The notes under the pieces are model-generated. The model saw only the letters and a program-made list of their open reading frames with translations, did no database searches and was not told the origin of the DNA. A stretch of 34,916 nt of DNA from Gammaproteobacteria bacterium (GTDB lineage: Bacteria > Pseudomonadota > Gammaproteobacteria > GCA-001735895): positions 1 through 34,916 of the forward strand of contig JASJBV010000004.1 in the NCBI GenBank assembly GCA_030066335.1, in the 5' to 3' direction. Both the position numbers and the translations under genes were made by a program. The first letter of the stretch is position 1. Every line of letters begins with the position of its first letter. Shown in pieces: positions 3,400-5,855 of the stretch.

Positions 3400-4581
3400 T
3401 TATTTATTGGCCTGCTTTTCCAACATGGCGACGGCAGGCAGGGTTTTACCTTCGAGATACTCCAGGAAAGCGCCACCGGCAGTTGAGATATAGGAGACCT
3501 TGTCGTAGATATCGTATTTCTGGATAGCCGCGATCGTGTCACCGCCACCGGCAAGACTAAAACAATCCGAATTGGCAATAGCCATAGAAACCGTCTTGGT
3601 ACCTTCGCCAAACTGGTCGAACTCGAATACGCCGACCGGGCCATTCCATACCACGGTGCCAGCATTCTTGATGATCTCGGCCAGCTCATTGGCTGAATCC
3701 GGACCGATATCGAAGATCATGTCATCATCATCGACATCAGCGGCTGATTTCAGCGTGGCTTCCGCAGTCTCGGAAAATTCCTTACCGACCACGACATCGG
3801 TCGCGATCGGGATATTGGCACCACGTGCCTGCATCTTTTCAATCAGGCTGCTGGCGGTATCCACCAGGTCGTCTTCGCACAGAGACTTGCCGACATTATG
3901 TCCGGTAGCCTTGAGAAAGGTATTGGCGATACCACCACCGACAACCAACTGGTCGACTTTTTCAGACAAGGCCTCGAGCACGGTCAGCTTGGTCGAGACC
4001 TTGGAGCCACCGACAATCGCCACCATCGGCCGTGCCGGCTCGGCCAGGGCCTTGGCCAGGTTGTCCAGCTCATCGGATAACAGCAGTCCGGCACAGGCCA
4101 CCGGTGCATGTACACCGACACCATGAGTCGAGGCTTGCGCGCGATGCGCGGTACCGAAGGCATCCATCACAAAAACGTCGCAGAGTGCTGCATACTGCTT
4201 GGCCAGGCCTTCATCATCTTTCTTTTCACCGGCGTTGAAACGGACATTTTCCAGCAGCACCACTTCACCCTCGGCAACTTCAGGTGCATTGCCCAGGTAA
4301 TCCTTGATCAGGCGGACTTCTTTACCCAGCTTGGCTGACATGTCCTCGGCGATCGGTTGCATCGAATTTTCTTCATCGACCTGGCCCTCTTCCGGACGTC
4401 CGCGGTGGGACATGACCTGCACTCTGGCACCGGCCTGCATACAATGCTCGATGGTCGGCATCGATGCGGTAATCCGCGCATCCGAGGTCACCTTGCCATC
4501 TTTAACAGGAACGTTGAGATCGGCACGAATCAGCACGCGCTTACCCGCCAGGTCAAGATCAGTCAGTTTGATAAAAGCCAT
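3400..4581 (-). CDS. pgk: Phosphoglycerate kinase
   Basis: 393 aa; [51 protein letters not shown] motifs. Confidence 0.97.
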
Positions 4582-4619
4582 GAAGAATCTCCTTCAAGAT
4601 TTGATTTACTATAAAAACG

Positions 4620-4656
4620 GTTTGTTAAATATTGATGAAGCCAAAACTTAACAAAC
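4620..4656. repeat. Inverted repeat upstream of pgk
   Basis: GTTTGTTAA (4620-4628) / TTAACAAAC (4648-4656), 9-bp perfect arms. Confidence 0.7.
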
Positions 4657-4671
4657 AGTTCTGGAAGAAAC

Positions 4672-4697
4672 CTGCCCGGAGAGAATTCCCCGGACAG
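4672..4697. repeat. Inverted repeat between gap and pgk
   Basis: CTGCCCGG (4672-4679) / CCGGACAG (4690-4697), one mismatch. Confidence 0.6.
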
Positions 4698-4710
4698 ATT
4701 TTAATACTCG

Positions 4711-4835
4711 TCTAAGCGAGAGATTTTTTCTGCTGGCAAGGCGGAGGAATAATTTGAGCTGCGCAGCGTATGTAAAATACGTGAGCAGTCAAATTATTCC
4801 GACAACGCCGCCAGCGGGAAAAAGATCCGCTTAGA
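4711..4835. repeat. Large imperfect palindrome, likely a dispersed intergenic repeat element
   Basis: Outer arms TCTAAGCG (4711-4718)/CGCTTAGA (4828-4835), nested GCTGGC/GCCAGC and GGAATAATTTGA/TCAAATTATTCC, central CGTAT/ATACG. Confidence 0.8.

Positions 4836-5855
<1,020 letters not shown>

Follow-up and report, generated by a model that had tools for sequence, protein, structure and literature searches.

Among described bacterial repeats, the CIR of Caulobacter (CcrM-associated intergenic repeats), RIME of rhizobia, and Bru-RS1/2 of Brucella are palindromic, multicopy, and mainly intergenic sequences of ~100-110 bp, with CIR1-4 measuring ~110 bp and carrying GANTC (PMC2229807, PMC10800456, PMC2573895). 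CIR have been described as a pair of independent stem-loops with a linker between them (PMC2229807). Rickettsia palindromic elements (RPE) are palindromes of 105-146 bp, some of which lie in frame within genes (PMC2229807), and they have been reported to end in CGTC (PMC3733652). REP/BIME are imperfect palindromes favoring the 3' ends of genes (PMC3733652). ERIC, NEMIS/Correia, RUP, and other MITEs are noncoding stem-loops of ~100-200 bp found near genes, and some such bacterial MITEs carry target duplications (PMC2229807, PMC3733652). Our literature search returned no paper uniting such elements across phyla, which is weak evidence of absence.

Here, we analyze a nested palindrome located between gap and pgk in a gammaproteobacterial genome, within a window of 34,916 nucleotides (the whole stretch of contig JASJBV010000004.1 that was studied). 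The genomes compared are drafts, and several of the counts given below were made by eye. By likeness, CIR/RIME/Bru-RS and RPE would be its nearest described kinds. It resembles CIR, RIME, and Bru-RS in being palindromic and multicopy. Alphaproteobacterial loci with the tip motif described below often carry GANTC at fixed offsets, but the window copy has no GANTC and, unlike CIR as described, forms one nested hairpin in both fold and covariation, which is why we do not file it as a CIR. A tip copy in Rickettsia tamurae lies within the dnaE reading frame, as some RPE lie within genes, whereas the window copy is intergenic, with no in-frame insertion. With REP/BIME, the element shares an imperfect palindrome and a preference for gene 3' ends. 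Like the ERIC, NEMIS/Correia, and RUP MITEs, it is a small noncoding stem-loop near genes, with duplications in one subfamily; unlike them, it has an unpaired core that stays constant across copies with freely varying stems, and a search for an IS with the same termini found none. Our analysis suggests that the feature next to gap probably belongs to a very widespread superfamily of nonautonomous, MITE-like DNA elements and sits at a recurrently occupied site.

A nested palindrome abuts the gap stop codon

The window carries the gene order tkt-gap-pgk-pyk-fba on the minus strand; Pfam supports tkt, gap, pgk, and pyk, and fba was named from sequence. A preliminary description had reported a nested palindrome of ~125 bp beside gap, and this structure is real. 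Its folding energy in gap sense is -57.6 kcal/mol, whereas shuffled sequences give -27.3 +/- 3.4 (0/200 fold as stably, z -9), and its arms lie where they had been placed: an outer pair at ~4711-4718/4828-4835, a middle pair at 4724-4737/4810-4823 (86% complementary), an inner pair at 4746-4757/4789-4800 (12/12 complementary), and a tip closed by CGTAT/ATACG. The coordinates also agree that the element ends at 4835, directly abutting the gap stop codon at 4836-4838, and a search of the whole window with our covariance model R2 (see below) found this copy alone, as had been noted. In an alignment of 13 gap-locus copies, the outer arms are mostly kept. The GCGTT within the conserved GGCGTTGTC part is also found in dispersed copies.

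Table 1. Features of the gap-pgk region of the window
Feature	Position	Strand	Evidence or remark
pgk, phosphoglycerate kinase	3400..4581	(-)	Pfam PGK
pgk leader hairpin, outside element	4614..4662	(-)	Fold
Separate terminator-like hairpin, between element and pgk	4668..4702	(-)	Fold
Nested-palindrome element	4711..4835	(-), gap sense	Fold z -9.0; model R2 120.8 bits
Outer arm, 3' in gap sense, CGCTTAGA	4711..4718	(-)	
Conserved CCGCCTTG, middle internal loop 3' side	4736..4743	(-)	Gap-locus and dispersed copies
Tip GCTCACGTAT-TTTAC-ATACGCTGCGC	4761..4786	(-)	Common to several phyla (pattern matches)
Conserved GGCGTTGTC, middle internal loop 5' side	4801..4809	(-)	Near-invariant in gap-locus copies
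Outer arm, 5' in gap sense, TCTAAGCG	4828..4835	(-)	Adjoins gap stop codon
gap, glyceraldehyde-3-phosphate dehydrogenase	4836..5843	(-)	Pfam Gp_dh_N + Gp_dh_C

Since both a terminator-like hairpin and a pgk leader hairpin lie downstream, the palindrome is not the sole candidate terminator of gap. At the other gap loci read, a hairpin likewise comes after the element. The pgk leader hairpin has a T-rich 3' side (TTTGTTAAG...TTAACAAAC...TTTTT), and the same hairpin is found upstream of pgk in most of the gap-pgk loci that were folded (L341-L370); it is possibly an attenuator.

The palindrome belongs to a widely dispersed family

A plain DNA search recovered homologues from the same position between gap and pgk in G074 and six of seven congeners, and from these a first covariance model, R1, was built. 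Of 95 genomes examined in the class, 51 contain R1 matches, and 75 matches were used to build the second model, R2. In the draft genome that contains the window, R2 finds 14 matches, 13 at E <= 1e-9 and one weak; these counts are approximate and the E-values rough, R2 having been trained on R1 matches and a subset of candidates scored per genome. The proposal that the palindrome is a dispersed repeat is thus upheld by these 14 matches and by many in relatives, and what would have spoken against it, a single copy with no homologues at other loci, is not what the model search found. Subfamilies of copies can be told apart by their stems, with GCGTT/CCTTG and the tip constant. Rfam gave no family match above its gathering score, and nothing matching the window copy was found in plasmid and phage records. 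Tandem copies in the same orientation occur at five loci (L104, L105, L107, L109, and L130), the last with three copies spaced ~126 bp apart, and one dispersed copy (L298) has a T run after its outer arm and may act as a terminator.

The tip extends much further. The pattern GCTCACGTAC-N3-6-GTACGCTSCGC occurs in at least 118 stretches, with hosts including Mesorhizobium, Agrobacterium, Listeria, Rickettsia, Nitrospirae, deltaproteobacteria, Pseudomonas, Vibrio, Klebsiella, and others, and the 25-nt tip of the window copy recurs in long palindromes from Alphaproteobacteria, deltaproteobacteria, Nitrospirae, Listeria, and Rickettsia. A likeness to elements of marine gammaproteobacteria, noted in the preliminary description, fits, although the family reaches much more widely. 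There are 48 matches in viral contigs, against 0 for two control patterns in which unpaired bases were altered, and many of these viral loci resemble phage or gene-transfer-agent gene clusters. A neighbor protein shared across loci was considered and rejected, the clusters read resembling such phage or gene-transfer-agent genes rather than a transposase. Among the matches listed, most tip copies sit inside long palindromes, though the pattern demands none, and R2 scores most of 42 tested tip loci in long palindromes, a cross-phylum link that is based on loci preselected by the tip pattern. Because 80 of 168 tip loci carry an alpha-type CTGCAAA and 20 a GCGTT/CCTTG core, the core itself varies between groups.

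Copies prefer gene 3' ends and recur at gap

Copies tend to lie just 3' of genes and in the sense of the gene. As scored with an ORF finder that is crude, especially at GC-rich loci, 28 of 61 copies have a sense ORF of 150 codons or more that ends within 60 nt upstream, mostly at 1-21 nt, and an antisense ORF lies on the other side in 10 of 61 (random positions, 6%); the exclusive cases number 24 sense versus 6 antisense (p 0.0014). A second recurrent site, in genus g3, lies between tRNA-Pro and tRNA-Arg (L043, L045, L046, L049, L052, L053, L054, and L063), where the arms are very different in each genome yet matched. In the R. tamurae locus (L175, 3505-3604), the PHP domain match of the dnaE that contains the tip copy covers 206 residues for 164 profile positions.

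The 3' end of gap is a recurrently occupied site, and the element has been exchanged there without its flanks. We read the 3' side of gap in 30 loci across the class and in G085. The site holds the element in seven of eight genomes of the genus and in six other families (G074, G085, G097, G123, G166, and G177), always in gap sense and either 0-6 nt past the stop codon or overlapping it. In sister genus g2, two genomes have short gap spacers and no element, most of the 17 gap loci of g3 have almost no spacer, and no gap match was found in G002; the gap loci devoid of the element still have a hairpin. By eye, the gap-pgk spacer of G181 (L352) contains an apparent decayed remnant of the 3' half of the element. 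A single vertical ancestry at gap was rejected, as the gap tree needs at least four changes of presence label and the identity of the element departs from that of its flanks. Between G001 and G004, gap beside the element is 93% identical and the element 80%, and between G003 and G005, gap is 76-80% identical and the element 93%. As its identity does not follow the flanks, the unit was exchanged in place, by reinsertion or conversion, and element-only exchange could be due to homologous recombination (gene conversion).

Arm complementarity is kept without a transcript signature

In the alignment of 13 copies from the gap locus, 94.2% of cells are paired, a share that falls to 39-49% once the pairing is slid; 24 of 41 pairs show double changes, with 70 double versus 7 single cells. 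Mean identity is 0.70 in the element and 0.47 at the fourfold sites of gap. On the sense strand, selection on pairing in the transcript is expected to make G-U commoner than A-C, and no such excess is seen, either in folds of the gap locus (G-U 19 sense versus 40 antisense) or in folds of the dispersed copies (204 versus 222). This places arm maintenance at the DNA level, where we infer that complementarity is upheld, and covariation as a proof of RNA function was rejected, unsupported by this strand test on G-U pairs.

These data bear on a different reading, in which the palindrome is a cis-acting element of the gap mRNA (a hairpin for 3'-end protection, processing, or protein binding) under selection for RNA structure, and the dispersed copies are the same RNA serving behind other genes. 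The strong covariation, the higher identity of the element than of fourfold sites, the invariable sense orientation right at the stop codon and before a hairpin at every occupied gap locus, and the equal placement favored by copies elsewhere all agree with it. We nevertheless consider it rather unlikely, because sense G-U pairs are not in excess, one-sided changes are rare, gap lacks the element in many relatives, and target duplications (see below) and element-only exchange indicate a DNA unit. A neutral fossil, functionless at gap, whose arms are matched by template-switch correction of a quasi-palindrome, would fit the predominance of double changes, the lack of the element in many relatives, and a G181 spacer that, by eye, looks like a decayed remnant. 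Correction of the arms, however, accounts neither for unpaired core motifs that are near-invariant among gap copies nor for an element much more alike than fourfold sites, which makes a fossil improbable.

Some family members have moved

Movement of some family members is evident from their flanks. In a subfamily with termini GGGCACCTCT...AGAGGTGCCC, 5 of 10 automatically delimited copies have exact 4-bp flanking duplications, against 0.09 at offset positions and with 0/2000 swaps reaching the observed level. The ends were fixed at GGG/CCC for this count, automatic arm extension having hidden duplications because flanking bases can pair. Three further duplications were seen by eye, at L085 (TAGC), L098 (TGAA), and L099 (TTAA); because TTAA reads the same on both strands, L099 and L091 carry less weight. 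In addition, two loci of congeners that are orthologous by their flanks (L064 in G000 and L071 in G006) each have a copy where the other has none, with edges too unclean for a duplication to be read. Two marks of a MITE are present, target-site duplication, demonstrated in the GGGC-ended subfamily but not for the gap copy, and insertion polymorphism, at L064 and L071. When GGGC termini were searched in 9 draft genomes, no IS-spaced pair and no parent IS were found.

The association with a REP-type transposase that had been put forward was not found: no model match lies in the 1.5 kb on either side of 30 genes for Y1 transposases, and no element near the one Y1 gene of the window genome. That the element belongs to REP/BIME and is mobilized by a RAYT (Y1 tyrosine transposase) is very improbable, even though Y1_Tnp genes are present in 46 of 57 relatives, REP/BIME are likewise imperfect palindromes 3' of genes, and the internal AAGGC/GCCGC is similar to an enterobacterial REP stem. 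Besides the lack of a nearby RAYT, the elements measure 95-150 bp (125 bp in the window) rather than 20-40, no GTAG tag was seen at copy ends, nor GTAG or CGTC at those of the gap copy, and one subfamily has 4-bp target duplications. That the palindrome is merely local, a long intrinsic terminator of gap, fits its stability and its position before pgk but is scarcely credible and, as a full explanation, refuted by homologous copies at many unrelated loci, no U tract following the sense-strand arm, a separate terminator-like hairpin coming next, and a hairpin being kept at gap loci devoid of the element.

Discussion

In the MITE-like superfamily that we favor, the unit would be a nested palindrome of ~95-150 bp with a strand-asymmetric unpaired core, made of GCGTT facing CCTTG and of the tip CTCACGTA-N-TACGCT(G/C)CGC. 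A putative enzyme may use this unpaired core to recognize one strand when it is folded into a DNA hairpin, and the arms would be kept matched by template switching between them or by selection on the hairpin. In the gap mRNA, the copy would form a structure in the 3' UTR, before the terminator-like hairpin, where it could protect or punctuate the gap message relative to pgk.

A bolder proposal, which we put forward tentatively and with considerable doubt, is that CIR, RIME, Bru-RS, RPE, and the unnamed elements of gamma- and deltaproteobacteria, Nitrospirae, and Listeria might form one pan-bacterial superfamily of hairpin DNA, moved by an unrecognized core-reading enzyme that is host encoded or acts in trans, the 3' end of gap and some other places being homing sites that are occupied repeatedly. 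Small palindromic repeats have so far been treated as lineage-specific curiosities, each with its own name. If the proposal is true, the asymmetric core across phyla, the duplications at the ends of one subfamily, and the element-only exchange at a fixed place would make them one family, and the search for a mobilizer and the effect on mRNA 3' ends would become testable. For this, the gap-pgk copies are a clean natural experiment, in which some related genomes have the element at one site and others lack it there.
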